Shown: positions 674 through 25,786 of the stretch, in pieces
Layout: each line of letters opens with the position of its first letter
Numbering within the stretch: position 1 is the first letter of the stretch
Assembly: GCF_006717095.1 (NCBI RefSeq)
Contig: NZ_VFQE01000001.1
Location: forward strand, 1,736,001-1,800,000
Length of the DNA stretch: 64,000 bases
Reading direction: 5' to 3'
DNA from: Blastococcus colisei
GTDB taxonomy: Bacteria; Actinomycetota; Actinomycetes; Mycobacteriales; Geodermatophilaceae
Notes under the pieces: generated by a model
Databases searched by the model: none
Seen by the model: only the letters and a program-made list of their open reading frames with translations
What the model was told of the DNA's origin: nothing
Translations under genes and position numbers: made by a program

Positions 674-753
674 ACGATTCGGTCGTTCACAGCAAACCGA
701 CAGGGAGTGTCTTCGGTCACCCACGCATACCCGCCCGGGCGTCCCGTCTCACC

Positions 754-1221: not shown

Positions 1222-1264
1222 CCGGACAGTGGCCGACGGCGAGCTGGTCGAGGGTGCGCTCGAG

Positions 1265-1981: not shown

Positions 1982-2032
1982 GGTGTGCTCCTCTGCGTGG
2001 ACGGCTGACGCCGGGGTTGGCGACCGTGGTTG

Positions 2033-10004: not shown

Positions 10005-10019
10005 CGCGGATCCCCCAGT

Positions 10020-10063
10020 ACCTGTGTCACTTCCACGCGGAGCGGCGTTAGACTGACACAGGT
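10020..10063. promoter_or_regulatory. inverted repeat, candidate PaaX-family operator
   Basis: A perfect 10-bp inverted repeat, ACCTGTGTCA (10020-10029) and TGACACAGGT (10054-10063), separated by 24 bases, lies between the divergent hydroxylase (start 10004) and PaaX-like regulator (start 10190) genes. The arm spacing would place two half-sites on nearly the same DNA face. It lies only 16-59 bp upstream of the catabolic operon start, a position suited to repression. Assignment to the PaaX-like protein is inferred from position only. Confidence 0.6.
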
Positions 10064-10189
10064 CCTGTCGATGGCACAACCGTCCAGCGACAGCTCCGTC
10101 GGCCCGTCGCGGGACGGCTCGCTCGTCGCGGAGCTGAATCTGGGCTGGGCCGGACGATGGCCGCAGGGCCCGGACTGGCGAGGAGACAG

Positions 10190-10993: not shown

Positions 10994-11074
10994 GTCGCCA
11001 ACCCCGTCGGTCCGACGAGACGCTCCGGTGGGCCTTCCGGGGCAGCGAGGGGCCAGCTCGGCTCGTTGGCTTCT

Positions 11075-11144
11075 CGCTGAACGCTGAACGCTGAACGCTG
11101 AACGCTGAACGCCGACCGCCGACCGCCGACCGCCGACCGCCGAC
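11075..11144. repeat. heptamer tandem repeat, 5 x CGCTGAA then 5 x CGCCGAC
   Basis: Ten uninterrupted 7-base units: five exact CGCTGAA copies (11075-11109) pass without a break into five exact CGCCGAC copies (11110-11144). The two unit types differ at two positions. The array lies in the 389-base space between the PaaX-like gene and the DUF222/HNH gene. A 7-base period is not a multiple of three and no coding frame is supported, so this looks like slipped-strand expansion of two successive variants. The other part of this space holds fragment A of the HhH-GPD repeat family. Confidence 0.9.
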
Positions 11145-11172
11145 CGCTTTCTCGCCGACCGTCACGCGCCAC

Positions 11173-11300
11173 GATCGGCAGCGTGTCGACCTACAGATTG
11201 CTGAGGATCCCGCGGCCGGTGACCTGCTCGGTCGCGATCTGCTCGCGCTGCTGACCGGGACGTTGCTCGACCAGCACATGCGTCGACGAAGGCAGCGACG
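11173..11300 (+). repeat. HhH-GPD 5'-fragment repeat, copy A (most diverged)
   Basis: From about 11183 the sequence follows codons 1-31 of the HhH-GPD gene at 25193 with many substitutions (frame: LQIAEDPAAGDLLGRDLLALL), then leaves it at codon 32 and continues with the CACATGCGTCGACGA tail shared with copies B and C. A one-base deletion near the start puts the first codons out of frame. No ribosome site is evident. The stretch 11301-11382, up to the HNH gene, holds nothing I recognise. Confidence 0.75.
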
Positions 11301-11382
11301 TGCGAGCCGCAGCATGCCCGTGGACACGTGCTGACTCGTCGACTACTCGGCGGGCCGGAATGCCCTGTTCCTCCGGGCGGAG

Positions 11383-12849
11383 CTAGAAGGGTGGCGGATC
11401 GCCGCCCGGTTCGGCCGGTGGTGGCTCGGGTGGGGGCCTCCGCAGGCCTGGTGGCCTGGTCGTGCGGGTGACGCCGGAGGGGGTGGTGACCTGCAGGGTG
11501 CCGTCGGGGTCCATGACGAAGCGCCAGCCGCGGGCGAAGGTCTTCAGCCGGTGATGGGAGCGGCACAAGCAGCAGAGGTTCGTGCACGTCGTCGCACCGT
11601 CGCAGGCGTGCGGGATGACGTGGTCCAGATCGGCCCAGCCCACCCGCTGCCCGCAGTTGGGCATCCGGCAGGTGTGATCCCTCGTCTGGACGAACGTCTC
11701 CTGCCGGTCGGTGGGCTCGTAGCCCTCGCTGTCCGGGGGCGTGCCGAGCACCGGGCAGCCGCAGTTCCCGCCCGGATGCTCGGCGCAGCCCTTCTTCGCC
11801 ACCCGCAGCAGCTCGGCGACCGTGGTGGTGGCCAGCAGCCGGCCGTCGGCGTCGGTGATCGCGAACGTCAGAGTGCCGCCGTGCGGTGTCTGCAGGCCCA
11901 GGGCGCCGATCCGGGCGAGCAGGTCGCGGGCGTGCGCCGCGGTGATCGCCAGCCCGTTGACCGACCCCGCCTGCGTGGATCCGCCCTGCAGGGAGTCGAG
12001 GGTGGCGGTGATCGTCAGATGGGCGGTGGCGTCGGGCTGGTCGTGCCCGCCGGGGCGGCGCAGCAGCAGGGAGAACAGCTCGGTGCGGATCTGGGCGATC
12101 GGGCGTGGGTCGCCGTCGGCCTTGGCCATCGTGGCCAGCTGGTCGATCACCGTGTAGGCCTCGGCCGCCTCATCGGCGGCCAGTTCCGCGCCGAGGGTGG
12201 CCATGCCGTCGGAGCCGGGCTGCAGGAAGACGTCGGCGCAGCGCTTGGCCTGCTCGCGGCGCTCATCGGCAGCCGTGGCGTCCAGCGCGAGCAGCAGCTC
12301 CAGCGCCCGGGTCTTCAGCCTGGCCACGGACAGGTCGACCGCCTCGGGCAGCAGCATGGTCTCGATCGCCCGCGCCAGGTCGGGGCGGGTGCTCCCGAGC
12401 ACGTCCGCGAGCGCCGCCGCGCGGGCCAGATCCAGCTCCCCCCGGGAGAGCGCGCGGTAGGTGGCGGGCAGGTTCTCCTGCCACCCCCGCGCCCGGTGGT
12501 GCAGGTGGTTGGCGGTGCCGCGGCCGCGGTTGAGCACCATCGCCAGCTCCCCGGCGAAGAACTCACTGACCCCGACCGGATCGTTCCCGGCCGCCCAGCC
12601 GGGCGTGCGCGCCCCCGGGGTACCGGCCGGGGGGTCGTGCTCGTCGGAGGTCAGCTCGGCCAGCCGCACGATCAACTCCGCCTCATAGGCGGCAGCCATC
12701 GCCTGCCGGCGCTGCTGCTGGTGCAGCTCCGCGGCCGCCTGCTCCTTCGACAGCAACGCCACCGGCAGCCGCGACGGGCTGACCGGCTGGTCGAGCAACC
12801 AGTCGATCAGCACGCCCTCGACGGTCGAGGAGCCGGAGATCTTGGGCAC
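11383..12849 (-). CDS. DUF222 domain protein with C-terminal HNH nuclease motif (13E12 type)
   Basis: The 488-residue product has an N-terminal DUF222 region (helical, ELIVRLAELTSDEHD ... DLARAAALADVLG) and a C-terminal HNH domain with CRMPNCGQRVGWADLDHVIPH and CTNLCCLCRSHHRLKTF, containing the paired Cys zinc ligands and the His-Asn-His-like core. This composition is that of the REP13E12-type proteins that occur in many copies in actinobacterial genomes. Their function is not established; nuclease activity is inferred from the HNH motif, and a mobile-element origin is suspected from their multiplicity. Here it is a single gene with a GTG start, flanked by HhH-GPD repeat copy A on one side and katG on the other. 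The proline-rich C-terminus is low complexity. Confidence 0.82.
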   Translation of the reverse strand: MPKISGSSTVEGVLIDWLLDQPVSPSRLPVALLSKEQAAAELHQQQRRQAMAAAYEAELIVRLAELTSDEHDPPAGTPGARTPGWAAGNDPVGVSEFFAGELAMVLNRGRGTANHLHHRARGWQENLPATYRALSRGELDLARAAALADVLGSTRPDLARAIETMLLPEAVDLSVARLKTRALELLLALDATAADERREQAKRCADVFLQPGSDGMATLGAELAADEAAEAYTVIDQLATMAKADGDPRPIAQIRTELFSLLLRRPGGHDQPDATAHLTITATLDSLQGGSTQAGSVNGLAITAAHARDLLARIGALGLQTPHGGTLTFAITDADGRLLATTTVAELLRVAKKGCAEHPGGNCGCPVLGTPPDSEGYEPTDRQETFVQTRDHTCRMPNCGQRVGWADLDHVIPHACDGATTCTNLCCLCRSHHRLKTFARGWRFVMDPDGTLQVTTPSGVTRTTRPPGLRRPPPEPPPAEPGGDPPPF

Positions 12850-13150
12850 ACCGACAAGCTAAGGCAGGGGTACGACACTATTCGGCGGATGAACAGTGAC
12901 GTCGCGGAGTGCGGCTGAACGTCGGATGTCCATCACTCACCTCGACCACGCACGTGGGCGCGCCGATGGAACGCCCGGCGAGCCGACCGGGATCGACGGT
13001 CGGGCGCTTCCTGCTGCGCCGCGGAACCATCCCCGGGGTTCGGTGAAGCTGGCGATTCGTCGGCTCCCCTGCAGCACCGCCCGTGCGGAACAAGCCGACG
13101 CCCGGGCCGTGTCACCAGGAGGACGCGACGCGATCGGGACGGGGGCGCGC
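12850..13150. other. intergenic space between HNH gene start and katG terminator
   Basis: About 300 bases without a supportable gene. The part next to 12850 must hold the promoter of the HNH gene, but I see no convincing -35/-10 pair (TAGTGT at 12880-12875 on the minus strand is the only AT-rich hexamer). Small open frames here have no ribosome site or recognisable product. Confidence 0.5.
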
Positions 13151-13187
13151 GGACGCCCCGGCCCGCACGACGCGAGCCGGGGCGTCC
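13151..13187 (-). terminator. terminator hairpin of katG
   Basis: A perfect 12-bp stem, GGACGCCCCGGC (13151-13162) and GCCGGGGCGTCC (13176-13187), with a 13-base loop, lies 13 bases past the katG stop. There is no U-tract, as is common in GC-rich actinobacteria. Confidence 0.7.
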
Positions 13188-13199
13188 ACGAGGGAGTGC

Positions 13200-15419
13200 T
13201 TACCGCAGGTCGAAGCGGTCGAGTTCCATCACCTTGACCCAGGCTGCGACGAAGTCCCGCACGAACCGCTCCTGAGCGTCGTCGGCCGAGTAGACCTCGA
13301 CGATGCCGCGCAGGATCGAGTTCGAGTTGAACACGAGGTCGGCGGGGGTGGCCGTCCGCACGACGGTGCCATCGGCGTCCAGACCCTCGTACACACCTTC
13401 CGTGTCGGCCGAGGTGCGCCACGAGACACCGAGGTCGAGCAGGTTGCGGAAGAAGTCCTGCGACAGCACGCCCGGCCGGTCGGTGAACACGCCGTGCTGC
13501 ACGCCGCCGGTGGTGGCGCCGAGCACGCGCAGCCCGCCGACCAGCAGGGTCATCTCCTTCGGCGTCAGCTCCAGCATGTAGGCCCGGTCGACGAGCAGCG
13601 TCTCCGGAGCCAGCTTGCTGCCCGGCTGGATCCAGTTGCGGAAGCCGTCGGCCCGCGGCTCGAGCCAGCGGAAGTTGTCGACGTCCGTCTGCTCCTGGGA
13701 GGCGTCGGTGCGGCCGGGCGTGAACGGCACGGTCACCTGGACGCCGGCGTCGGCCGCGGCCTTCTCCACCGCCGCGCTCCCGCCGAGCACGATGAGGTCG
13801 GCGAGCGAGACCCTCCTGCCGCTCTCGGACTCGAACTCGCCCTGCACCCGCTCGAGCACCGGCAGCACGTCGCGGACGCCCTCGTTGACCGCCCAGCCGA
13901 TCTGCGGCTCGAGGCGCAGCCTGGCCCCGTTGGCGCCGCCGCGCTTGTCCGTGCCGCGGTACGACGCTGCCGCGGACCAGGCCGTGTGCACCAGCTGCGA
14001 CACGGTCAGGCCGGAGGAGAGCAGACGCTGCTTGAGGTCCGCGATCTCCGGCTCACCGACCAGATCGTGCTCGACCTCGGGAACCGGGTCCTGCCAGATG
14101 AGCTCCTCGGCCGGCACGTCGGGGCCGAGGTAGCGGCTCTTCGGGCCCATGTCGCGGTGCAGGAGCTTGAACCACGCCCGTGCGTACTGGTCGGCGAAGT
14201 ACTCGGGGTCGTTCGAGAAGCGCTCCGAGATCGCGCGGAACCCGGGGTCCATGATGAGAGCGAGGTCGGTGGTCGCCATCATCGGCGGGTTCTTCTTGCC
14301 CTCGATGTGCGCGTCGGGGACGAGCTCCTGCGCCTCGGGGTTCTTGGGCTGCCACTGCTTGGCGCCGGCGGGGCTCTCGGTGAGCTCCCACTCGAAGCCG
14401 AACAGGGTCTCCCAGTAGGAGTTGTCCCACTGCGTCGGCGTCGGGGTCCAGGCGCCCTCGAGACCGCTGGTGATCGCGTCGGCGCCCTTGCCGGCGCCGT
14501 GCTGGCTGATCCAGCCGAGGCCGTTGCCGTGCACCGGGCACCCCTCGGGCTCCGGGCCGATGAGCTCGGGGTTGCCGGCGCCGTGCGTCTTGCCGAAGGT
14601 GTGGCCGCCGGCGATCAGGGCGACGGTCTCCTCGTCGGTCATGCCCATCCGGTTGAAGGTCACGCGGATGTCGTGGGCCGAGGCGACCGGGTCGGGCCGG
14701 CCCTGCGGTCCCTCCGGGTTGACGTAGATCAGGCCCATGGTGACCGCCGCCAGGTGGCCCTCGTCGAGGTCGAGCGGGACGTCCCCGCTGTAGCGCTCGT
14801 CGCCGAGCCAGGTGTCCTCCGGCCCCCAGAAGACCTCCTCGGGCTGCCAGGTGTCCTCGCGGCCGAAGGCGAACCCGAAGGTCTTCAGGCCCATGTCGTC
14901 GTGCGCGACGTTGCCGGCGAGCACGAGCAGGTCGGCCCAGGAGAGCGTGCGGCCGTACTTCTGCTTGATCGGCAGCAGCAGGCGGCGTGCCTTGTCCAGG
15001 TTGGCGTTGTCCGGCCAGCTGTTGAGCGGGGCGAAGCGCTGCGCGCCCTGGCCGCCGCCGCCCCGGCCGTCGGCGATGCGATAGGTGCCGGCCGCGTGCC
15101 ACGACATGCGGATGAACAGGGGGCCGTAGTGACCCCAGTCGGCCGGCCACCAGTCCTGTGAGGTGCGCATCATCTGGGCGACGTCGCGCTTGAGTTCCTC
15201 GACGTCCAGCTTCGCGAACTCGGTCTTGTAGTCGAAGTCCGCACCGAGCGGGTCGGAGTCCGTCGAGGGCTTGTTCAGCACCGACAGGTCGACCTGGTTG
15301 GGCCACCAGTCCCTGTTTCCGCGGGGCCGCTGGTCGGTGGAGGCGGTCGGCGACGGGATCGCCGGGTTCTCGCTCTCGCTGGTGCTCTCGGTGTGGACCT
15401 TGTCGGTCTCGTCAGTCAC
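13200..15419 (-). CDS. katG: catalase-peroxidase
   Basis: The 739-residue bifunctional haem enzyme removes H2O2 as catalase and peroxidase. The distal triad is Arg104, Trp107 and His108 in [11 protein letters not shown], and the covalent adduct partners are Trp107, Tyr232 ([10 protein letters not shown]) and Met258 (FNRMGM). The proximal haem ligand is His273 in [12 protein letters not shown], so all catalytic residues are present. The C-terminal non-haem duplicate domain is complete to the end. The GTG start at 15419 gives the family's usual N-terminus; a longer open frame upstream runs into furA. The gene follows furA after 46 bases, the classic actinobacterial furA-katG operon, and is followed by a strong hairpin. 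The segment [16 protein letters not shown] is a mild departure from the commoner VALESMGFKTFGF. Confidence 0.95.
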
Positions 15420-15465
15420 GGCGGACCTTTCTGGGCGTCGGGCGGGAGGGGGAGCGGTCGGTGGA

Positions 15466-15888
15466 TCAGGCGGCCGCACAGCTCGGGCAGCGACCCCAGA
15501 AGACGACCTCGGCCTCGTCGACGGCGAAGCCGCCGTCGTCGGAAGGGGTGAGGCATGGGGCCGCGCCGACGGCGCAGTCGACGTCGACGATGGCGCCGCA
15601 GTCGCGGCAGACCAGGTGGTGGTGGTTGTCGCCCACGCGCGCCTCGTAGCGGGCCACCGACCCTCGCGGCTGGATGCGCCGGACGAGGCCGGTGTCGGTG
15701 AGCACCCGCAGGACGTCGTAGACGGCCTGGTGGGAGATGGCGTCCACACGCGTGCGCGCGGCGCCGATGAGAGCCTCGGTGTCGAGGTGTGGGTGCGCAT
15801 GCACGGCGTCCAGGACCGCCAGGCGCGGACGTGTGACGCGCAGGCCCACGGCGCGCAGGTCGCGTTCGAGCTCTGCCGGGTCGGGCAC
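15466..15888 (-). CDS. furA: Fur-family regulator of katG (FurA)
   Basis: The 140-residue protein has the Fur winged helix ([25 protein letters not shown] ... [21 protein letters not shown]) and the dimerisation/metal part with [10 protein letters not shown] and a C-terminal CPSC pair. Next to katG this is FurA, the redox/iron-sensitive repressor of furA-katG. I choose the GTG at 15888: AGGA stands 7 bases before it and the N-terminus then matches mycobacterial FurA length. A longer frame opens at a TTG at 15924, but that TTG is better read as the -35 element (TTGACT) of the promoter. Autoregulation is expected from the family. Confidence 0.9.
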
Positions 15889-15905
15889 GAGTAGATCCTG
15901 GCGCG

Positions 15906-15928
15906 CTTCCTTGGAAGGAGTCAAGAAA
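15906..15928 (-). promoter_or_regulatory. furA-katG promoter region with candidate FurA box
   Basis: On the minus strand TTGACT (15924-15919) looks like a -35 and is followed by CCTTCCAAGGAAG, an imperfect dyad with arms CTTCC/GGAAG (15917-15906). The arrangement TTGACT plus a TTCC-A-GGA dyad resembles the mycobacterial FurA box that overlaps the furA -35. The -10 is weak (CAGGAT, 18 bases on). Function inferred by analogy. Confidence 0.4.
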
Positions 15929-16152
15929 CGCGTGGCCCCGACCGGCAGCCCCTGCAGGCTCGTCGGCGCCGACGACAGTCTGCGCCGACGCTCGGCCGGT
16001 GGACGTCCTCCGCCCGTGCACTCGGTGCGGCTCTGGTCCGAGTCCCTGTCGCGGCCGTGCGGTCAGACGTCGACGCCCGACAGTCGGGTCGTGCGGTCCC
16101 CGAGCCGCGCTGGTCCGAGGCCCATCGGGGCGTCGTCATCGGGCTGCGTTGA

Positions 16153-16279
16153 GGCACACTTCCTCGTGCCGGAACTCCGCATCGCCCAGGACGACGCCGC
16201 CGACGACCGCCTCGGGCGCGACCCGCTCGCGCTGCTGATCGGGATGCTGCTGGACCAGCACGTGCGTCGACGAAGCAGC
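16153..16279 (+). repeat. HhH-GPD 5'-fragment repeat, copy B (open frame of 52 codons)
   Basis: Starts with GGCAC/GTGCC arms around the GTG at 16166, follows codons 1-31 of the HhH-GPD gene closely (RIAQDDAADDRLGRDPLALL), then switches at codon 32 to the CATGCGTCGACGAAGCAGC-type tail. The frame stays open from 16166 to a TAG at 16324, two bases short of the convergent mazF stop, giving a 52-residue product if translated. No convincing ribosome site. The 228 bases between furA (15925) and this copy hold nothing else I can recognise. Confidence 0.85.
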
Positions 16280-16325
16280 AGGCTCGTCTTCCCAGGAGCG
16301 ATGCAGGCCGGGGTGTGGGTGTAGG

Positions 16326-16643
16326 TCAAAGACCGAGATACCGGGTGACGGCGACCTCGACGTCCTCGAGTTCGTCGCGATGGAGGAAGAACGCGGGCTC
16401 TTCTTCGATGAACTGCACGTCGACGGTTCGCAGATGATCGACAAGGAACCGGGTGGGGATTCCGCCGAGCGCGATCTCGGGCCGGAAGACGGCCGGCTGC
16501 GCCTGCGTCGACGTCGGGACGATCGTGGCGACGCTCCAGGCCATGTCGGTCGGGCTGAGGACCAGGCCGTAGCGCCGGCCGCGCTGCTCGTGTCCACGAC
16601 GGGCCTCGCCGAGGTCGACCCGGTAGACGGCGCCGCGGATCAC
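16326..16643 (-). CDS. MazF/PemK-like toxin
   Basis: The 105-residue product starts [31 protein letters not shown], the beta-strand opening of the MazF/PemK ribonuclease family, with the usual second half ([16 protein letters not shown] ... [12 protein letters not shown]). Family members cleave RNA unless bound by an antitoxin. The GTG at 16643 overlaps the antitoxin stop (GTGA), which fixes the start and shows translational coupling; a longer frame from 16715 lies inside the antitoxin gene. Catalytic residues cannot be assigned with certainty from sequence alone. It converges on repeat copy B with only one base between the two stops. Confidence 0.78.
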
Positions 16644-16840
16644 CAGGCGTCGGCTTCGTCGGACAAGTCCTCGTCGGCCAACCGCTCTGCGTCGGCACGC
16701 GCTCGCGCAAGCCACGCTTCGCGGTCCAGAAGGCGTAGTGCGCGACGAATGACGTCGGTCGTTCGCTCGTCGTCCCGAATGGCCTCACGGATGATCCGCT
16801 CGTCGTCGTCGGTCGGACGGAATCCGATCGTCTTGCTCAT
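16640..16840 (-). CDS. antitoxin-like protein (ribbon-helix-helix type) of the MazF-like toxin
   Basis: The 66-residue product [24 protein letters not shown]... begins with a short beta strand followed by two helices ([22 protein letters not shown]), a ribbon-helix-helix pattern, and ends in an acidic tail likely to wrap the toxin. It precedes and overlaps the MazF-like gene, the usual antitoxin-first order. A good promoter stands so close to the ATG that the mRNA would be nearly leaderless. Autoregulation by the complex is expected for the family. Confidence 0.75.
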
Positions 16841-16848
16841 GCCTTGAT

Positions 16849-16876
16849 GTTATACACCTGCTTTACATCTGTTCAA
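16849..16876 (-). promoter_or_regulatory. promoter of the antitoxin-toxin pair
   Basis: Minus strand TTGAAC (16876-16871), 16 bases, TATAAC (16854-16849). This is the most consensus-like sigma-A promoter in the accessory zone and one of the few AT-rich spots. The expected transcription start (about 16842) is within 2-3 bases of the ATG at 16840, so the transcript is probably leaderless. An ATGT...ACAT partial dyad spans the spacer and -10 and may be an operator. Confidence 0.65.
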
Positions 16877-17036
16877 CCGTCCTGTGGAGTCGAGGCTCCG
16901 TTGGCAGTGGGCGCCTTCGCTCCGACTGGCCGCGGCGGCACATCGTGGACGCTCGCCGCGGGGTGCGGCAGGGGAAGGGCGACAGCCGACGCGCAGCTCG
17001 CCGGCCACAGGGGGGATTGCGGCGGGGTCGCTCTGC

Positions 17037-17165
17037 GGCACCATCTCCGGTGTGCCGACCCTCCGCATCGCCCAGGACACCGCCGCCGACGAGCTGCTCG
17101 GATGCGACCCGCTCGCGCTGGTGATCGGGATGCTGCTGGACCAGCACATGCGTCAACGAAGCAGC
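17037..17165 (+). repeat. HhH-GPD 5'-fragment repeat, copy C (open frame of 38 codons)
   Basis: GGCAC at 17037 and GTGCC at 17052 bracket the start; the frame from GTG 17052 matches codons 1-31 of the HhH-GPD gene almost exactly (VPTLRIAQDTAADELLG, then DPLALVIGMLLDQ) and ends QHMRQRSS with a TGA at 17168. A 38-residue peptide would result if translated. The surrounding gap, 16877-17036 and 17169-17330, shows no other gene or signal I can support. Confidence 0.88.
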
Positions 17166-17330
17166 TGACCGTTCCCAGCGCCGAGATCAGCGGACGCCCC
17201 GCTGCTGGTCCCCATGCCCTGCGACCGCCCGCGCCGCGTGGACGGGAGTCGCTGGGGGCGCGGCCAACCCCTGCCGCTCGGCGCAGCGTCCGGCCCCTCC
17301 ACGCCCCACCCGGTGGGCTGTTCACGCCCG

Positions 17331-17987
17331 TCAAGGCAGCAGGCTGTCTTCCAGTGTGGTGCGCAGCCAGCGCTCGTACCGGTCCGGTGGCCAGTCGCAG
17401 TGCACCCGGAACATGTGGTGCAGCTCGGGGCTGGTGAGGGCCCACAGGACGGCGGCTGCCTCGTCCACCGGCATCGCGTCCCGCAGGGGGCCGTTCGACG
17501 CGATCCATCCCGCGACGGTCGTCATGGCCTGCCGCCGCTGGCGCAGGTGCAGATCGTCGCGCAGGGCCCCGACGTCGGCATCGACCGCGGCAGCGCTGCG
17601 CAGCATGTCATCGACCGGAGCGATGCGCTCCAGCTGGCCGAGGATGCCGTGGGCGAACGCCGCGACCTGCTGACGCTGGTCGGTCTCGGCCCGCATGGCC
17701 TGTGGATCCGGTCTGTCCAGTAGCGGGACGTCGGCGTCGTCACCACCCACGACGGTGTCCAGCGCCGCCTGCAGCAGCCGGCGCTTCGAACCGAAGAGGT
17801 GGAACACCGTGTCGACCGACACCTCGGCCTCGCTGGCGACCGCGGCCAGGGTCGTGCCGGCGTAGCCCCGGGCGAGGAACAGGTCGATGGCCGCCGCGAC
17901 GACCCGGCGCCGGGTCCTCCTCGCCCGCTCGGCGCGCAGCGGGGAGCGGTAGGGCCGTCGGTTGACAGGGTCCGCCACGGGGAGCAC
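17331..17987 (-). CDS. TetR-family transcriptional regulator
   Basis: A 218-residue regulator with the TetR helix-turn-helix near residues 25-70 (RRRVVAAAIDLFLARGYAGTTLAAVASEAEVSVDTVFHLFGSKRRLL split over two helices) and a variable helical ligand domain. GTG at 17987 is used; an in-frame GTG at 17978 would also work. It is divergent from the small methyltransferase gene at 18041, with a perfect 8-bp palindrome between them that is a fitting TetR operator. Ligand unknown. Confidence 0.88.
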   Translation of the reverse strand: MLPVADPVNRRPYRSPLRAERARRTRRRVVAAAIDLFLARGYAGTTLAAVASEAEVSVDTVFHLFGSKRRLLQAALDTVVGGDDADVPLLDRPDPQAMRAETDQRQQVAAFAHGILGQLERIAPVDDMLRSAAAVDADVGALRDDLHLRQRRQAMTTVAGWIASNGPLRDAMPVDEAAAVLWALTSPELHHMFRVHCDWPPDRYERWLRTTLEDSLLP

Positions 17988-18000
17988 GCTACCGCTATTC

Positions 18001-18019
18001 GTCCTAGTGCAACTAGGAC
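18001..18019. promoter_or_regulatory. palindromic TetR operator candidate
   Basis: GTCCTAGTGCAACTAGGAC: two perfect 8-bp arms (GTCCTAGT/ACTAGGAC) around a 3-base centre, placed 14 bases from the TetR start and 22 bases from the methyltransferase start. Size, symmetry and position fit a TetR dimer site controlling both genes. Confidence 0.72.
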
Positions 18020-18040
18020 CGAAATGATGAGAGGTGCCGC

Positions 18041-18646
18041 ATGAGCACCGGATACGCCATCGCTTACCGGCTGGGCATCACTCCGTGGGAGCGCGCCGGA
18101 CGGGAGGCGGCGGGCCAATTCACCGGTCTGTTGTCCCGGGAGGAGGCCGAGCGGACCCCGCCGTACGGACGCGCCCTCGACTTGGGCTGCGGAACCGGTG
18201 TGCACTCCCTGGAACTGGCCCGAAGGGGCTGGGTGGTGACCGGGATCGATGCCGTGGGCGCCGCCGTGCGTCAGGCCCGGGCGCGCGCGGTCGAGCAAGG
18301 GGCCGACGTCAGGTTCCTGGAGGGTGACGTCACCGCCCTGCGGCGGGCTGACGTGGGCGAGGTCGGCTTCTTCCTCGACGTCGGGTGCTTCCACGGGTTG
18401 ACGGATAGCCAGCGGGCGGCGATGGGGGACGGGGTCACCGCCGTCGCCGCCCCCGGCGCGACGCTGCTCCTGCTCGCCTTCCGGCCCGGACGGCGCCAGC
18501 TCCTGCCGCGCGGTGCTGGCCGCGGCGACATCGAAACCGCCTTTCCCGGCTGGACCCTCGCCGATGAGGTGCTCGCCGACGTGACCGGGATGCCCGGCCC
18601 GCTCAGGCGGACCGCGCCGCGCTGGTACCGCCTGCGAAGAGCGTGA
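18041..18646 (+). CDS. class I SAM-dependent methyltransferase
   Basis: The 201-residue protein has the SAM-binding GxGxG motif in RALDLGCGTGVHSLELARRGW, the acidic strand-2 end in VVTGIDAVGAAV, and DVTALRRADVGEVGFFLDVGCFHGL where motif II/III is expected. Such compact thiopurine/tellurite-like methyltransferases act on small molecules; substrate is unknown. It has an ATG with a GAGAGG ribosome site and sits opposite a TetR regulator, which suggests induction by a toxic compound (inference). Confidence 0.85.
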   Translation: MSTGYAIAYRLGITPWERAGREAAGQFTGLLSREEAERTPPYGRALDLGCGTGVHSLELARRGWVVTGIDAVGAAVRQARARAVEQGADVRFLEGDVTALRRADVGEVGFFLDVGCFHGLTDSQRAAMGDGVTAVAAPGATLLLLAFRPGRRQLLPRGAGRGDIETAFPGWTLADEVLADVTGMPGPLRRTAPRWYRLRRA

Positions 18647-18700
18647 CGGCGGAGCAGACGGTCGCCGTGGCGGTGGGTGCTTGCCACGAGCCCTTCCTAC

Positions 18701-18760
18701 GGCACGATCTCGGTGTGCCGACTCTGCGCATCGCCCAGGACGACATGTGAGAACGAAGCA
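18701..18760 (+). repeat. HhH-GPD 5'-fragment repeat, copy D (internally deleted)
   Basis: Keeps both ends of the repeat but lacks the middle: GGCACGATCTCGGTG (18701-18715) and codons 1-10 of the HhH-GPD gene (VPTLRIAQDD up to 18744) are followed directly by ATGTGAGAACGAAGCA, the diverged 3' tail. About 66 bases present in copies B and C are missing. The frame stops after 11 codons (TGA at 18750). It lies just upstream of the AfsR-like regulator gene. Confidence 0.8.
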
Positions 18761-18795
18761 CCGCGGCCGCTGCGCCCGATACCGTCGACAGGGCG

Positions 18796-21700
18796 ATGAA
18801 TGTGCAGTCACGTCCACGAGGGCCGGCGCCCCGGTTCGGGATCCTCGGTGAGCTGCGCGTCGACGTCGGTGGCGACGAGGTGCGGCTCGGCAGCCCGAAC
18901 CAGCGCGTGCTGCTGGCGGCCCTTCTGGCCGAGGTCGGAGCGGTCCTCTCCGTCGACCGGCTGGCCGACATCCTGTGGGGCGACGGCCAACCCCACGATC
19001 CGGCAGGCGCGATCCAGACCCAGGTCTCCCGGTTGCGAGGTGCGCTCGAGCGGAGGGGCGGCGCTCCTGCCCGAGACGTGCTCGTCACGCGCCCTGGGGG
19101 CTACGCCGTGGCCGTCGAGCCCGACCAGGTCGACGCCGGCCGTTTCGAGCGGCTGATCGGCGAGGCACGCGCCGCCTCGAAACCGCATGCCAGGGTCGAG
19201 CTGACGGCGGAGGCGTTGAGGCTGTGGCGGGGACCGCCACTGCCTGAACTCGGCCACGAGCGGGCGATCGTGGAGGCGGCGCGCCTGGAGGAGCTGCGCT
19301 GGACTGCGCTGGAGCTCCGAGCTGAGGCGATGCTGAGCCTGGGGCGCCACCCGGATGTCGTGGCCGAACTCGAGGTGCCGATCGCCGGCAACCCGCTCCG
19401 TGAACAGCTCCGTGGTCAGCTGATGGTGGCGCTGTACCGCTCTGGACGGCAGGCGGATGCGCTCGCCGCCTACCGGGATCTGCGGGACACGCTGGTCGGC
19501 GAGCTGGGGATCGAGCCGTCGGCGCCGCTGCGGGAGCTCGAGCGGGCGATTCTCCAGCAGGCCGAGACCCTCCCGTGGCCGGCGTCCCCGGTCGAGGGCG
19601 GTGCGGACGTGGGTGCCCCACGCCGGACTCACCGGGCGGCGAGGGGGACGAATCCCGCGTTGCCCGAGGAGCTGACCAGTTTCGTCGGTCGGCAGGCGGA
19701 CATCCGGGGCGTCAGGGCAGCGCTGGAGCAGAACCGGATCGTGGTCCTGACCGGCGTCGGTGGCGTGGGCAAGAGCCGGCTCGCCGTACGCGTCGCTCGC
19801 GAGCTGACCGAGGACTACGCCGACGGCGCGGTGTGGTGCGACCTCGTCAGCGCCGAGGACCCGAGCGCCGTGCCCGATGTGGTCGCGACCGCGCTCGGTG
19901 TGCTGCCTTCCGAGCGCGGGAGCATCGCCGGCCTGACGGAGATCCTGCGCGCCCAGCACGTGCTGCTGGTGGTCGACAACTGCGAGCACGTGCTGGCCGG
20001 CGCCTCCGAGCTGGTGAACCTGCTCCGGCGCCGATGCCCGAACGTGGGTGTGCTGGCCACCAGCCGGCAGCCGCTCGACGTCGTCGGCCAACAGGTCTGG
20101 CCGGTTCCACCCCTGGACGTCGGGGACCTGGGGCGAGGCACTGCGGTGGAGTTGTTCCGAGAGCGGGCCGCATCGGCGGATCCCACCGTCGACTGCACCG
20201 GCGCCGACCGGGAGGCCGTGCTGGAGCTCTGCCGCCGGCTCGACGGACTGCCCCTGGCCGTCGAGCTGGCCGCGGCCCGGACGCGATCCATGACCCCGGC
20301 CGACATCGCCGAACGGCTCGATTCCCGGCTCGAGATGCTCGCCGAGGGATCCGACGCCACCTCGCCGCGGCACCGGAGCCTGCAGGCCGCCCTCGACTGG
20401 TCCTACGACCTGCTCCCGGATGCGACGCAGCGGCTCTTCGATCGGCTCGCTGTCTTCGCCGGCGGGTTCGATCTCGACGCCGCCGGCCGTGTCTGCGCCG
20501 GCGATGGGGTACCGGCAGCCGCGGTTGCCGGCCGGTTGGCCGAACTGGTCGACCACTCGCTGGTGGCCGTCGACCGCGCCGGCCGGCACGCGCGGTACCG
20601 CCTCCTGGAGAGCCTCCAGGCCTACGCCGAGGCGCACCTCGACGAGCGTGGCGAGCTGCCGTCCTGGCGTCGCCGTCATGCCGAGCACTACCTGTCCCTG
20701 GCGGAACGGGCCGCGGTCGGCCTGCGCGGCCCCGACGAAGGCCATTGGGTGCACCTGCTCGACACCGAGTTCGCCAACGTCCGTGCCGCACAGAACCGGG
20801 CATGCGCGTCCGGGCACGCGGACGTGACCCTGCGGCTTCCGGGACTCCTGTGCGACTACGCGTACTTCCGGCTCCGCGACGAGGTGTACGGGTGGGCGCA
20901 GCATGCGCTCGAGCTGTCGGAAGCTTCGGCCCACCCCGCCCGGTCGGCGGCCCTGCTCACGGCTGCGGTCGGCCGCATGCAACGGGGTGAGCTGGACGGG
21001 GCACTCGAGGCCGGCGCCCAGGTGCTCGCCGCGACCTCCGACGATCAGCTGGTACTGCGTGCCACGCAGCTGCTCGCGGAGATCGCGCTCTACCAGGGGC
21101 GCCTGGACGATGTCGACCGGCGAGGGGACGAGGTCCTCGAACGGGCGCGTGCGGCGGCGGATCCCTACGCCGAGGCGCTGGGCCACCTCTACCGCGTGCA
21201 TGCGGCCGCCTACCGCGGACAGCCCGAGCAGGCGCGATCCCGTCTCGACGCCGGTTGGCGGGCCGTGGAGAGAGCCGGCACCCCGAGCCTGCGGGCGGGA
21301 TTCAGCTACCTCGAGGGCGAGATCCGGCTGGATGCCGCTCCCGAGGTGGCGCTCGCCGCGTTCGCCCAGGCCATCGAGGCCACCCGCCCGGTGGGCAACC
21401 GGTTCGTGGCAGGGGTGGCCCGCGTCGCCATCGCCTCCCTGGCGGCGCGGCACGGGAGACCGGAGGAGGCGTTGCTGGCCTTCCGCGACATCGTCGACCA
21501 CTGGCGGACGTGCGGTGACTGGGTCCACCTGTGGACCACCCTGCACAACCTCGTGGTCATGCTCGAGCGCGTCGGAGCCGACGAGGCCGCGGCGGTCCTG
21601 CACGGCGCGGTGCACACCGCCACCACCGGCGCCCAGCCCTTCGGCGCGGACGCCGACCGCCTGCGGGCCGCTGCCGCCGCTCTGCGGCGGTCGTTGGGGG

Positions 21701-21822
21701 AGGAGACGTTCGCGGCCGCCGTGACGCGCGGTCGGTGCATGAGCGACGTGGACGTGGTCACCTTCGTGCTCGACGAGATGGAGCGTCTGCTGACAGCGCA
21801 GTCGGCCGAAGGGTGCGGGTAG
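18796..21822 (+). CDS. AfsR/SARP-type regulator (BTAD, NB-ARC ATPase, TPR)
   Basis: The 1008-residue protein carries an OmpR-like winged helix (residues about 14-95, FGILGELRVDVGGDEVRLG...RVLLAALL), a bacterial transcriptional activator domain (to about 250), an NB-ARC ATPase with P-loop GVGGVGKSRL near residue 320 and LLVVDNCEHV as Walker B, and a long C-terminal TPR-like helical region. The architecture matches AfsR-like regulators, which sense signals through the ATPase/TPR part and activate secondary metabolism or morphological genes. No biosynthetic cluster is adjacent, so the target is unknown. It starts at ATG 18796 just after repeat copy D, so part of its promoter may lie in that repeat. 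Confidence 0.87.
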   Translation: MNVQSRPRGPAPRFGILGELRVDVGGDEVRLGSPNQRVLLAALLAEVGAVLSVDRLADILWGDGQPHDPAGAIQTQVSRLRGALERRGGAPARDVLVTRPGGYAVAVEPDQVDAGRFERLIGEARAASKPHARVELTAEALRLWRGPPLPELGHERAIVEAARLEELRWTALELRAEAMLSLGRHPDVVAELEVPIAGNPLREQLRGQLMVALYRSGRQADALAAYRDLRDTLVGELGIEPSAPLRELERAILQQAETLPWPASPVEGGADVGAPRRTHRAARGTNPALPEELTSFVGRQADIRGVRAALEQNRIVVLTGVGGVGKSRLAVRVARELTEDYADGAVWCDLVSAEDPSAVPDVVATALGVLPSERGSIAGLTEILRAQHVLLVVDNCEHVLAGASELVNLLRRRCPNVGVLATSRQPLDVVGQQVWPVPPLDVGDLGRGTAVELFRERAASADPTVDCTGADREAVLELCRRLDGLPLAVELAAARTRSMTPADIAERLDSRLEMLAEGSDATSPRHRSLQAALDWSYDLLPDATQRLFDRLAVFAGGFDLDAAGRVCAGDGVPAAAVAGRLAELVDHSLVAVDRAGRHARYRLLESLQAYAEAHLDERGELPSWRRRHAEHYLSLAERAAVGLRGPDEGHWVHLLDTEFANVRAAQNRACASGHADVTLRLPGLLCDYAYFRLRDEVYGWAQHALELSEASAHPARSAALLTAAVGRMQRGELDGALEAGAQVLAATSDDQLVLRATQLLAEIALYQGRLDDVDRRGDEVLERARAAADPYAEALGHLYRVHAAAYRGQPEQARSRLDAGWRAVERAGTPSLRAGFSYLEGEIRLDAAPEVALAAFAQAIEATRPVGNRFVAGVARVAIASLAARHGRPEEALLAFRDIVDHWRTCGDWVHLWTTLHNLVVMLERVGADEAAAVLHGAVHTATTGAQPFGADADRLRAAAAALRRSLGEETFAAAVTRGRCMSDVDVVTFVLDEMERLLTAQSAEGCG

Positions 21823-21884
21823 TCCCCGTATCCGGAGAGTGCCTCTCCAAGAAAGCCGGCACCACCTCGTCGTACGTTCCGATG

Positions 21885-22043
21885 TCATCTGCCGGCAGAT
21901 CGTGCGAGCTGTCCGGCACGTCGGGCGGACGTCTCCATCTGCGGCTGCCAACTGCGCAGGTCGCCGAGCGAGCCGTGCACCAGGACGGCCGGGTCTCCTG
22001 CTCCTCGCTCGACGTACTCGAGCTGCGTCTGGTCCACCTGCAT
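21885..22043 (-). pseudogene. alpha/beta hydrolase N-terminal remnant
   Basis: An ATG at 22043 opens 52 codons (MQVDQTQLEYVERGAGDPAV, then LVHGSLGDLRSW, the oxyanion-loop HG motif of alpha/beta hydrolases) before the similarity stops and a TGA occurs at 21885. The rest of the hydrolase (nucleophile elbow, Asp, His) is absent, so this is a decayed fragment filling the space between the AfsR-like and methyltransferase genes. Confidence 0.6.
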
Positions 22044-22073
22044 GGTGGGCACGTGCGCCGCTCGATCTCTCTC

Positions 22074-23144
22074 CTACGGGCGGGCCTCGAGCACCTGGTG
22101 GATCGGGGCGTCGGCGACCTTCCGGAACCGGGTGAAGCCCGCCTTCTCGAAGATCTCCCCGATCGCGGTGGGTCCGGCCTGCCCGCCGAGCGCGTAGCGG
22201 CCGGGCTGGGCCAGCGCGTTGGGGACGCAGACGAACGTGGACATGCCGTACCCGAGCCTGCCCAGCGGGTTCAGGTTGTCCTCGGTGCGGTCGCCGGACC
22301 GGATCTCGACGAGCATCACCGCGCCGTCCTCCGCGAGCGTCTCGCGCGCGTGGACCGCCGCCGACACCGGGTCGCCGAAGTCGTGCAGGGCGTCGAAGAA
22401 GCAGATCAGGTCGTAGCCGCCGTCGGGGGCCGGGTACCCGCCGGCGTCCGCCACCTCGAATCTGAGCCGGTCGCCGCCCTCGAGCCCGGCGTCGGCGGCA
22501 CGCCGCCGGGCGATCTCGACGGAGGCGGCGTGATAGTCGAACCCGGAGACGGTGACGTTCGGGAAGGCCCCGGCGAGCAGGATCGTCGAGGCCCCGTGAC
22601 CGCAGCCGACGTCGGCGACGTGTCCGCCATCCTGCAGCCGCTGCTGCACGCCGTCGAGCGCGGGGATCCAGCTCTCGACGAGGTGCGTCCGGTAGGCCGG
22701 CGCGAAGATCCCCTCCGTCGAACCGAAGAGCCCGGGGCTCTGCTCGTGCCAGCCCACGCCGTCTCCTGACCGGAAGGACGACTCGAGCCTCTCCGCGACC
22801 GCCCACACCGCGGCCATCTGCTCGAAGCCCGGCGCCAGGTGGACGGGGCTGTTCTCGTTCGCCAGCACCAGGGCGTGCTCCGGCGGAAGCTCGTAGGTGC
22901 CCTGTGCCGGCTCATACTTGATGTAGCCCCCGGCCGCCTGGTTGGCCAGCCACTCGCGCAGGTAGCGCTCGTGGACCTCCGTCCGTAGCGCCAGGTCCGC
23001 GGGTGTCAGCGGTCCCGCACCGGCCATCGCCCGGTACAGGCCGAGCCGATCGCCGATGTGAGCCAGGGCGGTCGAGACCGTGGCGCCGAGGTCGCCGACG
23101 ACCTGTCCCGCGAACTGCTCGAGCTTCTGTTCGTCGATGGTCAT
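22074..23144 (-). CDS. SAM-dependent methyltransferase with N-terminal winged helix (Rv2258c-like)
   Basis: The 356-residue protein has an N-terminal dimerisation/winged-helix part (GDRLGLYRAMAGAGPLTPADLALRT, VHERYLREWLANQAAGGYI) and a class I methyltransferase domain with GHVADVGCGHGASTILLA, the acidic VSGFDYHAASV and DLICFFDALHD. The layout and wording match the mycobacterial Rv2258c family, whose natural substrate is unsettled. It is a single gene with an ATG start on the strand opposite to the AfsR-like gene. Confidence 0.85.
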   Translation of the reverse strand: MTIDEQKLEQFAGQVVGDLGATVSTALAHIGDRLGLYRAMAGAGPLTPADLALRTEVHERYLREWLANQAAGGYIKYEPAQGTYELPPEHALVLANENSPVHLAPGFEQMAAVWAVAERLESSFRSGDGVGWHEQSPGLFGSTEGIFAPAYRTHLVESWIPALDGVQQRLQDGGHVADVGCGHGASTILLAGAFPNVTVSGFDYHAASVEIARRRAADAGLEGGDRLRFEVADAGGYPAPDGGYDLICFFDALHDFGDPVSAAVHARETLAEDGAVMLVEIRSGDRTEDNLNPLGRLGYGMSTFVCVPNALAQPGRYALGGQAGPTAIGEIFEKAGFTRFRKVADAPIHQVLEARP

Positions 23145-23291
23145 GGTCGCGTCACTCCCTGGGTCGAGGTCCGGTGCCCCGGATCCTCACGCGCCGTCCT
23201 CTCATCCGGCTGTCACTTACCTGTCGCTGCCGCCGTCACCGGACGAGACCTCCTGCGGGCTGAGCCGACCCGGTGACTTCCCGTCGAGAGA

Positions 23292-24476
23292 TCAGCTGTC
23301 GCCGGTGGCACGTAGTGACAGGACGGCGAGGTCGTCCGCCAGGTGACCGGACTGGAAGTCCAGCACCGACGTCTCCACCCTCCCGGCGATGTCCGCGGCG
23401 CCGGCCCCCGGCACCGCGGCGAGCAGCGCCCGCAGCCGGTCCTCGCCGAACAGCTCGAGACCGCCCGCAGCAGTTCGGTACCGGGCCTCGGTCACCCCGT
23501 CGGTGTAGAGCACGAGCACGTCGCCGGGCACCAGGATCGTCCCCTCCACCGGGAGGTCGATCTCGGGCAGGCTGCCCAACAGCGTCCCGGGGCTGCCCAG
23601 CTCCTCCACGGCGCCGGTGCCGCCGCGGAGGACCAGGGGCAGCGGGTGGCCGGCAGACGCCGCGCGCAGGTCGATCCGGTGCCCGGCGCGTCGGGCCAGG
23701 ACGCAGGCGACGGTGCACGTCCCGTTGGGGGCTCCCTGACGCAGCAGGACGGTGTTGGCCGTGTGCAGCACGTCCGCCGGATCGGCTGTGTGGACGGCGG
23801 CGGTCCGGATCGCGTAGCGGACGGCGGCGGTGAGCGACGCGGCGACCGGCCCGGTGCCCTCGACGTCGCCGATGACCAGCAGCCACGAGGAGTCGTCGAT
23901 CTCGATGAGGTCGTAGAAGTCTCCGCCGACGGTGGCCACCGTCCCGCCGGGCCGGTAGACGGCTGCCAGCTCCGCCCCGGCGGGCTGCGGGAGGTCGGGG
24001 GGCAGGAGGCTGCTCTGCAGGTCCTCGGCGAGCCGGCGGTGACGTTCCTTGGAGGCGGCCAGCGCCTCGGCGAGTCGTCGCTCGGTGGTCACGTCGGCCA
24101 CCACGACGCACAACCCGATGACCTCCCTGTCGTGCCGGACGGGGAAGAAGCTGGCGTTCCAGTGGCGGACGTCCTCCGGCCGGCTGCCCACCGCGCCGGT
24201 CATGAGGATGTCCCGTCTCGGCCGGCCGGAGCGCAGCACCTCGCGGTACTGCTCCTCGGCTTCGGCACCGATCCCTGGGTGCAGCTCCGCGGGCGTCCGG
24301 CCCAGCAGCTCGACGGCCGGCACCCCGTTCATCTCCTCTAGGACCGGGTTGACCCGTACGTGCCGGATGTCCTCGTCGAACAACCCGACGCCGAACGGCG
24401 CGCTGTCGATGACCGCGTCCAACTGGGCGGCGATCACCTGGAGGCGGCTGCGTCCTGCTCCGGGAGATCGAGGCAC
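23292..24476 (-). CDS. PAS domain-containing SpoIIE/PP2C phosphatase
   Basis: The 394-residue protein has a PAS fold (residues about 12-130: LDAVIDSAPFGVGLFDEDIRH ... GLCVVVADVTTERR) and a SpoIIE-type PP2C domain (from about 160) with metal-binding VGGDFYDL, VIGDVEGTGPVAA, GTLLGSLPEI, LVLYTDGVTEAR and the terminal HLADDLAVLSL. Family members dephosphorylate anti-sigma-factor antagonists in partner-switching stress pathways; the PAS domain presumably senses a small ligand or redox state. No STAS or anti-sigma gene is adjacent, so the partner is elsewhere. GTG start at 24476. Confidence 0.88.
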   Translation of the reverse strand: MPRSPGAGRSRLQVIAAQLDAVIDSAPFGVGLFDEDIRHVRVNPVLEEMNGVPAVELLGRTPAELHPGIGAEAEEQYREVLRSGRPRRDILMTGAVGSRPEDVRHWNASFFPVRHDREVIGLCVVVADVTTERRLAEALAASKERHRRLAEDLQSSLLPPDLPQPAGAELAAVYRPGGTVATVGGDFYDLIEIDDSSWLLVIGDVEGTGPVAASLTAAVRYAIRTAAVHTADPADVLHTANTVLLRQGAPNGTCTVACVLARRAGHRIDLRAASAGHPLPLVLRGGTGAVEELGSPGTLLGSLPEIDLPVEGTILVPGDVLVLYTDGVTEARYRTAAGGLELFGEDRLRALLAAVPGAGAADIAGRVETSVLDFQSGHLADDLAVLSLRATGDS

Positions 24477-24619
24477 AGAAAGGACAGTAGGCAGCCGGAC
24501 CGACTCCCATGCACGCCTGTACTGCGGATACGTGACCGCGGAGCATTCTCACCGGGCACGCCCAGGCCCTGTACTCACGCGCAACTCCACCTGGAGACCG
24601 GCCGGGCGCCGGCCGAGCG

Positions 24620-25060
24620 CCCGGGGTACCCCTCGGCGGAGCTCGACCGCATCCCGGCGCCGGCCGTCGAGTCCTTCGCCGGCGTCGGCTGGTTCTTCGA
24701 CCTGGCCGATCCGAGCGGGGGAGACCGTCGTGGACCTCGGGTCGGGGTCGGGAATGGACGCGTTCTCCGCCGCGCTGCGGGTCGGCCCGACGGGATGCGT
24801 CGTCGGGGTCGACATGACAGACGCGCAAAGCCGACCGGCGCGCCGAGCACGGCCTCGACCACGCCATGTCTCGGGGCCGGGCGGATCGAGCAGCTGCCGG
24901 TCGACGACGTCAGCGTCGACGTGGTCCTCTCCAACCGGGCCATCAACCGACCCCGACAAGGACCAGGTCTTCCGTGAGGTGGCACGGGTGCTGCGGTCGG
25001 GCGGCCGGCCTACGGCGTCCGCAGCGTCTGCGTGCTGGCGAAGAAGCAGGTGCGCTGGCC
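24620..25060 (+). pseudogene. decayed methyltransferase (arsenite methyltransferase-like)
   Basis: Recognisable segments lie in successive different frames: YPSAELDRIPAPAVESFAG (about 24627-24684), ETVVDLGSGSGMDAFSAALR with the SAM-binding motif (about 24721-24780), RIEQLPVDDVSVDVVLSN (about 24885-24938) and DKDQVFREVARVLRSGG (about 24953-25003). At least three frameshifts separate them. The order and wording match the ArsM/UbiE-like methyltransferase group. Outside this remnant, 24477-24619 and 25061-25192 hold nothing else I can support apart from the ribosome site of the next gene. Confidence 0.8.
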
Positions 25061-25192
25061 CACCGCCGTGGCTGCACCGGGCTCCCGACGGGACGTCGCG
25101 AGTCCGGTGCGGCGACTCTGCCCAGGGAGCCGCGCTCGCCGAGTCGTCCACGCCGGCTGTTCGCCCGGATGCTGATCAGGGAGGATCGGCGC

Positions 25193-25786
25193 GTGCCGAC
25201 CCTCCGCATCGCCCAGGACCCCGCGGCCGACGAGCTGCTCGGGCGCGACCCGCTCGCGCTGCTGATCGGGATGCTGCTGGACCAGCAGTTCCCGATGGAG
25301 CGCGCGTTCGGTGCGCCCCGACTGTTGGCCGATCGACTCGGCGTCGATCGCCTGGACGCCGCTGTCCTGGCTGCCCTCGACCCGGACGAGCTGACCCGCG
25401 TGTTCCAGGGCCCGCCGGCGCTGCACCGGTACCCCGGGTCCATGGCCGGCCGGACGCAGGAGCTGTGCCGGCTGCTCGTGGACCGGTACGGCGGGCTGCC
25501 GGAGAACCTCTGGACCGACGCTCCCGACGGGGCGAGCCTGCTGAAGCGGCTCAACGAGCTGCCCGGCTTCGGCGCCCAGAAGTCGAAGATCTTCCTCGCC
25601 CTCCTCGGCAAGCAGTACGGCGTCACGCCGCCGGGCTGGCGGGAGGCGGCCGGCGACTACGGGGTCGACGGCTCGCGACGCTCGGTCGCCGACATCACCG
25701 GACCGGAGTCGCTGGCCGAGGTGCGTGCCGTCAAGCAGGAGCAGAAGCAGGCGGCCAAGGCCGCCAAGCAGTCCGCCACGAACTAG
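25193..25786 (+). CDS. HhH-GPD family base-excision DNA repair protein
   Basis: The 197-residue protein contains the helix-hairpin-helix signature LNELPGFGAQKSKIFLALLG (residues about 119-138) of the HhH-GPD glycosylase superfamily and a lysine-rich C-terminal tail (VKQEQKQAAKAAKQ). It is shorter than Endo III and lacks the FeS cysteine loop; a catalytic Asp is not obvious, the Asp of GVDGSRRSVADI being a candidate. The start is GTG 25193, set by AGGGAGG at 25178-25184. Its first 31 codons are the source-like sequence for repeat copies A-D at 11.2, 16.2, 17.0 and 18.7 kb; beyond codon 31 (DQQFPMERAFG) only this copy continues. Enzymatic activity is unproven. Confidence 0.85.
   Translation: MPTLRIAQDPAADELLGRDPLALLIGMLLDQQFPMERAFGAPRLLADRLGVDRLDAAVLAALDPDELTRVFQGPPALHRYPGSMAGRTQELCRLLVDRYGGLPENLWTDAPDGASLLKRLNELPGFGAQKSKIFLALLGKQYGVTPPGWREAAGDYGVDGSRRSVADITGPESLAEVRAVKQEQKQAAKAAKQSATN

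Follow-up and report, generated by a model that had tools for sequence, protein, structure and literature searches.

How does a bacterial chromosome come to hold four displaced beginnings of a DNA repair gene in front of the intact gene? The question is raised by a 64,000-nucleotide stretch of Blastococcus colisei DNA (contig NZ_VFQE01000001.1, positions 1,736,001 to 1,800,000), here called the window and numbered from its first base, in which an intact HhH-GPD-type base excision repair gene (25193..25786, + strand; TIGR03252, 2e-83) is preceded by four fragments, A to D, that repeat its first codons. An earlier note, made from the letters of the window alone, had suspected a small gene-derived element of the MITE (miniature inverted-repeat transposable element) kind. 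We consider it very probable instead that the fragments are displaced 5' ends of the gene that remained after repeated site-specific integration events at its codon 31, where GACCAGC would be the chromosomal attachment site (attB) of phage-type large serine integrases.

Fragments A to D and their crossover point

The four copies that the earlier note had listed, at 11183 (A), 16166 (B), 17052 (C) and 18715 (D), are all present, and all lie on the + strand, as does the gene. Fragment A (11176..11299) is a decayed copy of codons 1-31 followed by a tail of what we call class 1, and fragments B (16156..16279) and C (17039..17165) are displaced gene starts with the same class of tail. The three part from the gene at exactly the same base, directly after GACCAG in codon 31; the crossover follows position 11274 in A, 16258 in B, and 17144 in C, the equivalent position in the gene being 25285. 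From sequence comparison, the proposed integration core within the gene, GACCAGC, is at 25280..25286 (+). Past the crossover, A, B, and C share the tail CAC(A/G)TGCGTC(G/A)ACGAAG(G)CAGC, which the gene lacks, and this part of the earlier description is confirmed. Fragment D (18705..18762) had been taken for a copy without a tail, but it is a gene start with an internal deletion: about 70 bp are gone between codon 10 and the tail, of which ..ACATG..GAACGAAGCA is retained, and its homologue in the relative G020, which follows a matching methyltransferase cassette (94.9% over 1464 bp), has fragment and tail in full.

Shared, invariant ends mean that the copies arose by a single mechanism, as had been proposed; on our evidence, however, the unit of about 125 bp is not what moved, since the fragments share a strand and, wherever the gene is on the same stretch, an upstream position, with long DNA carrying differing genes between one scar and the next. 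An upstream GGCAC arm, pairing with GTGCC at the start codon, had also been pointed out. This dyad exists, but it is not specific to the fragments (21 of the 54 long enough to judge); it is a feature of the gene start in many relatives (48 of 84), and the window's own intact gene does not have it. Where it spans the GTG start, for example at 17035-17056, it perhaps serves translational or operator control. Short tandem repeats (GAACGCT and CGCCGAC units) occupy 11077-11147, immediately 5' of fragment A.

When the B unit was searched against the whole B. colisei genome, it matched C (3e-36), the gene (1e-31), and A (1e-18), all at this locus; D was absent from the list, and a single further match had an E-value of 3e-4. 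A shorter query gave two further matches at 6e-4.

Fragments, empty sites and gene starts across the family

Blastococcus, the genus of B. colisei and also of B. tunisiensis, belongs to the Geodermatophilaceae. A search with the fragment matched at least 103 of 112 genomes of this family (E<=1e-8), many of them more than once, and many of the matches are the gene itself. The tail was also found in records of B. tunisiensis, Blastococcus sp. DSM 46786, and Geodermatophilus sabuli, and a scan of 397 genomes of the order with a 36-base tail pattern picked out 11, every one a member of the Geodermatophilaceae. For a census, 98 stretches were taken from 91 of the 112 genomes, most of them covering 18-19 kb on the upstream side of the gene and about 1 kb on the downstream side; the first were chosen from the same genus and from genomes with several listed matches, and the later ones mostly from single-match genomes. 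The B46786 and Gsab loci (duplicates of G020 and G053) were dropped, as was the unrelated stretch G014b, which had been the positive control in an earlier recombinase scan. Fragments were detected by a nucleotide profile at 25 bits or more, a limit below which fragment D itself falls (22 bits).

The census yielded 73 fragments in 43 genomes, 39 of these with a classed tail. All 73 lie on one strand; each of the 54 on stretches with the gene or its 3' half is upstream of it, and the remaining 19 are on stretches without the gene. Whole-genome match lists show the same pattern of strand and position, both for B. colisei and, among the matches listed, for its relatives. What had suggested a MITE-like element was the common ends, the short unit, and the inverted arms of some copies. 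The copies are, however, one-stranded and upstream of the gene, with none outside this locus in the window's own genome; the inverted arm is part of the gene start and not the unit's own, and no dispersed copies with target duplications were seen. Such an element was rejected as most improbable.

The tail classes were defined by us from the same fragments. At the core, 44 tails are of class 1, 13 (and two doubtful ones) of class 2, two of class 3, and three of class 4; outside the classes, two tails are gene-like, five are of other kinds, and two lack the core. The core reads exactly GACCAG in 53 of the 62 classed fragments. Applied to controls, the same rule classed 7 of 20,000 random 24-mers and, of 859 GACCAGC places elsewhere, 5. 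Leaving aside the two gene-like ones, none of the tails occurs in the intact genes listed in the tail comparison. One tail, in G097 (L093, 878-1040), has the core repeated head to tail (CTCGACCAGCACCTTGCA), perhaps through repeated integration or slippage at the site.

The fragments of the window lie between the gene and dtd (D-aminoacyl-tRNA deacylase; 757..1221, - strand; PF02580 6e-47, TIGR00256 4e-37), which is the left border of an insertion zone at 1222..25192. This distance of about 24.0 kb is larger than the region first marked, and the suggestion that the copies sit in accessory DNA was correct. The dtd gene could be located in 81 of the 98 stretches, and in 11 of these it is only 20-243 bp before the gene, none of the 11 having fragments. 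In the other 70, dtd is farther off or the stretch has no gene; 34 of them contain fragments and 36 do not. Counted by group, dtd is the immediate neighbour in 11 of 47 stretches without fragments and in 0 of 34 with them (Fisher p 0.002). Window positions 1-1210 match the G093 stretch that directly precedes the intact gene of that genome, and in 21 of 46 stretches, the left flank of the outermost fragment is the left flank of the gene in a fragment-free genome (both gaps <600 bp), although some of the 21 are loose (gaps 200-460 bp) and G064 is doubtful. Decay of paralogues after tandem duplication would account for the resemblance of the fragments to the gene, and two of the 73 are gene-like past the core, but the empty sites, the single cut point in several genera, and the absence of the remaining tails from the intact genes listed all argue against it, and we give this explanation hardly any credence. 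In some draft genomes, the fragments and the gene are on different contigs, as in G079 (C5, C25) and G041 (C4, C7, C16), where the fragments are on a contig other than that of the intact gene; the separation of the dtd-side scar from the gene in G079 possibly reflects a large insertion or a move of the gene.

In genomes with fragments, the first 31 codons are decoupled from the remainder of the gene. Across 33 such genomes, the pairwise identity of codons 1-31 correlated with that of the rest of the gene at a Spearman rho of 0.06, compared with 0.27-0.45 for other segments of the gene, whereas across 13 fragment-free genomes the first segment gave 0.42 and the others 0.05-0.35. G009, G010, and G011, whose fragments are on another contig, were grouped as fragment-bearing; G041 and G079, of the same kind, were left with the others. 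Bootstrapping over genomes gave medians of 0.07 (-0.13 to 0.27) versus 0.42 (0.25 to 0.57) for the next 93 bases, and the order was reversed in 0 of 500 replicates. In cross-genus pairs, of which G017/G093 is an example, identity reaches 97% before codon 31 and is 77% after it.

Split genes, serine integrases and the intervals between fragments

Integrase-bearing cases were found because genomes in which the gene start and the gene end lie apart were examined. G037, G080, and G016 were taken from later stretches, outside the 98, and of one later set solely G037, G080, G084, and G086 were analysed. In G037, G080, and G016, the native 3' half of the gene is severed at the same core, with a gene for a large serine integrase next to it. 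In G037, the gene is interrupted by an 8.9-kb insert; a 491-amino-acid serine integrase is encoded about 40 bp past GACCAGC, and the insert also encodes capsid and primase-like proteins. This element (L207, G037:C1:2320900-2333000) is phage-satellite-like. The serine integrase of G080 adjoins the native 3' half, the class-2 tails of that genome being on another contig. In G016, an integrase 64% identical to that of G080 adjoins the native 3' half, and a full-length copy of the gene, closest to that of another genus, is located 30.8 kb upstream, behind a class-1 fragment; the arrangement (G016:C5 ~154-186 kb; L224-L226, L059) is possibly an intermediate of gene restoration. In B. tunisiensis (G015), the gene is split by a 0.5-kb insert with GACCAGC at both ends. 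Judged by eye, the B. tunisiensis insert (L039, 190-1290) seemingly encodes two very small membrane proteins.

The integrases of G037 and G080 have Resolvase, Recombinase, and zinc-ribbon domains, the zinc ribbon of the latter being just under the cut-off (23.7 vs 25.3 bits). That of G080 also matches CcrB/CcrC models weakly, and both fall far under the Ccr cut-offs. The integrases of Streptomyces phages Celia, Yosif, Nanodon, and Conan are 39-42% identical to that of G080 and 31-34% identical to that of G037. These four, of 39 records with at least 80% coverage, were examined for the phage attachment site (attP), and in all four CGACCAGC lies some 45 bp ahead of int, flanked by what by eye are inverted arms. 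These are related serine integrases with the core beside int, but they belong to whole phages. The fragment with its tail had no match among phages and one weak match in a plasmid collection, to an unannotated Nocardia record; IMG/VR scans with two tail patterns gave 0 matches.

If serine-integrase elements integrate at GACCAGC, the fixed point, the orientation, the tails (as P' arms), and the split genes are all explained. We infer that such integrases made the cuts and that the tails are P' half-sites; the restoration of the gene is a further step of the model. Codon 31 of the HhH-GPD gene, with its core GACCAGC, would be a chromosomal attB for integrative elements with large serine integrases. 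Integration would cut the gene, leaving the old promoter and codons 1-31 at the far end, joined to a half-site of the element (B-P', the tail), while the near end would keep the 3' half. That the gene is whole in most genomes would be due to a foreign gene start that arrived with new DNA, the integrase part being lost. By the likeliest route, the element's own HhH-GPD gene, or its gene start, would recombine with the orphaned native 3' half, and the intervening DNA would be deleted; G016 looks like the state before that deletion, and one deletion by homology would turn it into the usual array. Repetition of the cycle would leave a row of scars with differing genes between them, and homologous recombination between the gene-start repeats may spread the intervals further. 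The fixed ends, empty sites, and co-occurring recombinase that the earlier note had proposed to look for were found, but they point to integration scars and not to a transposon.

The intervals between scars hold ordinary genes. In the window, interval A-B (11275..16258) encodes a DUF222 protein (11383-12849, - strand), a KatG-like peroxidase (within 13200-15800, -), and a Fur regulator (15466-15924, -); interval B-C (16259..17144) encodes a PemK/MazF-like toxin (16326-16715, -) and, by position only, its probable antitoxin. A TetR regulator (17331-17987, -) and a methyltransferase (18041-18646, +) are encoded in interval C-D (17145..18744), and a BTAD/STAND regulator (18796-21822, +), a methyltransferase (22074-23144, -), and a PAS-SpoIIE phosphatase (23292-24476, -) in the interval from D to the gene (18745..25285), which ends in the present gene start, codons 1-31 being the part exchanged. 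Left of fragment A, positions 3549-10993 contain cupin, AMP-ligase, acyl-CoA synthetase-like, FAD monooxygenase, and PaaX regulator genes, perhaps an aromatic-degradation cluster gained in the same zone. Over 56 intervals, neighbouring sites are 0.26-17 kb apart, and similar intervals are found again in other genera and at other positions. DNA similar to the PemK/MazF interval of type B-C occurs in stretches of 11 other genomes, in five of which it is the last before the gene; the version in G024 (last before the gene) and that in G059 (between fragments) are 92% identical over 799 aligned bases. The histidine kinase-response regulator interval of G020 is also present in G024 and G019, and the first half of the window's D-gene interval is also in G024.

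A number of observations weigh against serial integration as we propose it. Plain attP x attB integration leaves the gene unrestored. When the 98 stretches were scanned with the proteins of 20 recombinase loci as queries, one recombinase was found, a serine recombinase in G047, 9.5 kb from the gene. The G037 and G080 integrases have close relatives (E<=1e-60) in one and two of 108 genomes, respectively, none of them the window's, and five other resolvase-domain matches in the window's genome all fall outside this locus. Class 1, which is the window's tail, is linked to an integrase via G016 alone, with the foreign gene copy intervening. The P and P' arms are not significant inverted repeats of each other in any of four Geodermatophilaceae elements, and with 16 occurrences of GACCAGC in the four 3.8-kb phage stretches, its position beside int is no more than suggestive. 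In 36 of the 47 fragment-free stretches, dtd is displaced too, so displacement alone is no proof of scars; these 36 may have lost their scars or been filled some other way. Some 24-bp segments in the 3' part of the gene also give a rho near 0, such finer segments being noisy. Finally, only 9 of 54 pairs of similar intervals start within 10 bases of the core in both members, the other 45 starting farther inside, and the identical part of G063 and G064 starts about 11 bp right of the core. The G047 recombinase gene (L174, oriented 7808-9271) lies upstream of an intact gene on a stretch with no recognised fragments.

The starting points of the interval pairs and the G063/G064 junction favour another explanation, in which a few old integrations were followed by spread mainly through homologous recombination, the gene-start repeats of ~100 bp in incoming DNA pairing with those already resident. 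The mean likeness of gene starts is about 85%, and between genera it is as high as 97%; a single recombination between them would make the gene whole, bring in cassettes, and remove integrases. The left fragments of the nine core-starting pairs are, however, 66-88% alike, no higher than fragments in general (79, sd 7), and four tail classes begin at one base, so a site-specific step is needed. We regard this explanation as possible but rather doubtful; it is possibly a second step of serial integration as much as a rival to it, and the probabilities assigned to the two overlap.

The near absence of recombinases from the stretches, and intervals that recur across positions and genera and each end in a gene start, would also suit an integron-like array, in which integrase-less cassettes are inserted singly by a trans-acting recombinase of the tyrosine type or another unknown kind, with the 31 codons and the tail forming the site on each cassette. 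No integron integrase (TIGR02249) exceeded the curated cut-off in any of the 108 genomes, however, with one partial weak match in G066, and it is serine integrases that lie beside the split genes. No tyrosine recombinase was found near the gene among the matches listed for 16 genomes, nor in the 98 stretches. The multi-gene, two-strand cargo also differs from integron cassettes, and such an array is, in our judgement, quite improbable. Sites resembling dif were found in eight of eight genomes; by eye, they do not share the core, and the class-2 tail resembles a XerD arm only weakly, and a Xer/dif origin was rejected. Returning to sites used by serine integrases, we think it unlikely that the 31-codon gene start is itself an exchangeable recombination site, with integrase-less cassettes gained singly before the gene and each bringing a new gene start.

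Related systems and meaning for the family

The closest known kind of system is that of tandem-accreted serine-recombinase islands, of the ssrA-island or staphylococcal cassette chromosome (SCC) type, from which the present locus differs in its exchanged N-terminal coding part, its family-wide reach, and its near absence of integrases. SCC elements, moved by the Ccr recombinases, combine serine recombinases with accreting cassettes, some of them without a recombinase; the likeness is in these features and in the weak CcrB/CcrC match of the G080 integrase, and the target gene and the gene end used are different. Traits of the ssrA-island and SCC type found here are the fixed integration point, a border repeat with an extra motif, empty sites, and a recombinase beside some attachment borders, though not those of the window.

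In Dehalococcoides, as described in the excerpted text of PMC3146451, tandem islands lie at the single-copy ssrA gene, and at the borders of each island the gene end is repeated beside a conserved 15-bp motif that is absent from the gene; a serine recombinase is present in some, and 15 islands have no integration module. The logic is the same, but the target there is the 3' end of an RNA gene and here codon 31 of a protein gene, and, as far as that text goes, the host phylum, integrase, and cargo differ as well. Integrative and conjugative elements of the SXT/R391 group integrate site-specifically at the 5' end of prfC, and tandem arrays are cited (excerpts of PMC2791158). As here, the target is the 5' end of a conserved protein gene, but the integrase is of the tyrosine type, the elements are conjugative, and no family-wide array of integrase-less scars is described in those excerpts. 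Mycobacteriophage Bxz2 has its attB in Msmeg_5156, a putative DNA glycosylase gene (PMC9262239, in part). It thus pairs a serine integrase with a DNA-glycosylase gene as attB in an actinobacterium, the likeness being one of gene description, and the part of that paper drawn on describes no scar arrays.

Literature searches returned no paper combining HhH-GPD, attB, and integrase, and nothing relevant among the matches listed on Geodermatophilaceae gene cassettes, integrons, or genomic islands or on serine integrases and tandem integration. A search on Blastococcus genomic islands and integrases gave one paper, on dinucleases, whose excerpted text does not describe the site; absence from print rests on these searches only.

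For the Geodermatophilaceae, the locus is a spot of foreign-gene uptake, the gap between dtd and the gene growing from the 20-243 bp seen in 11 stretches to as much as about 24 kb in others. If the model is right, each scar stands for one event in which the old gene start of the host was preserved, and the order of insertion could be read from the array. The sites also provide candidate attB/attP pairs with which serine integrases could serve as genetic tools in these soil bacteria. Were the 31-codon start indeed the unit of exchange, the N-terminus and promoter of a repair protein would be swapped between genera with each capture, in an analogue of the integron built on serine-integrase sites. 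On the model of serial integration, repeated integration alters the start of a conserved repair gene while the gene is retained.

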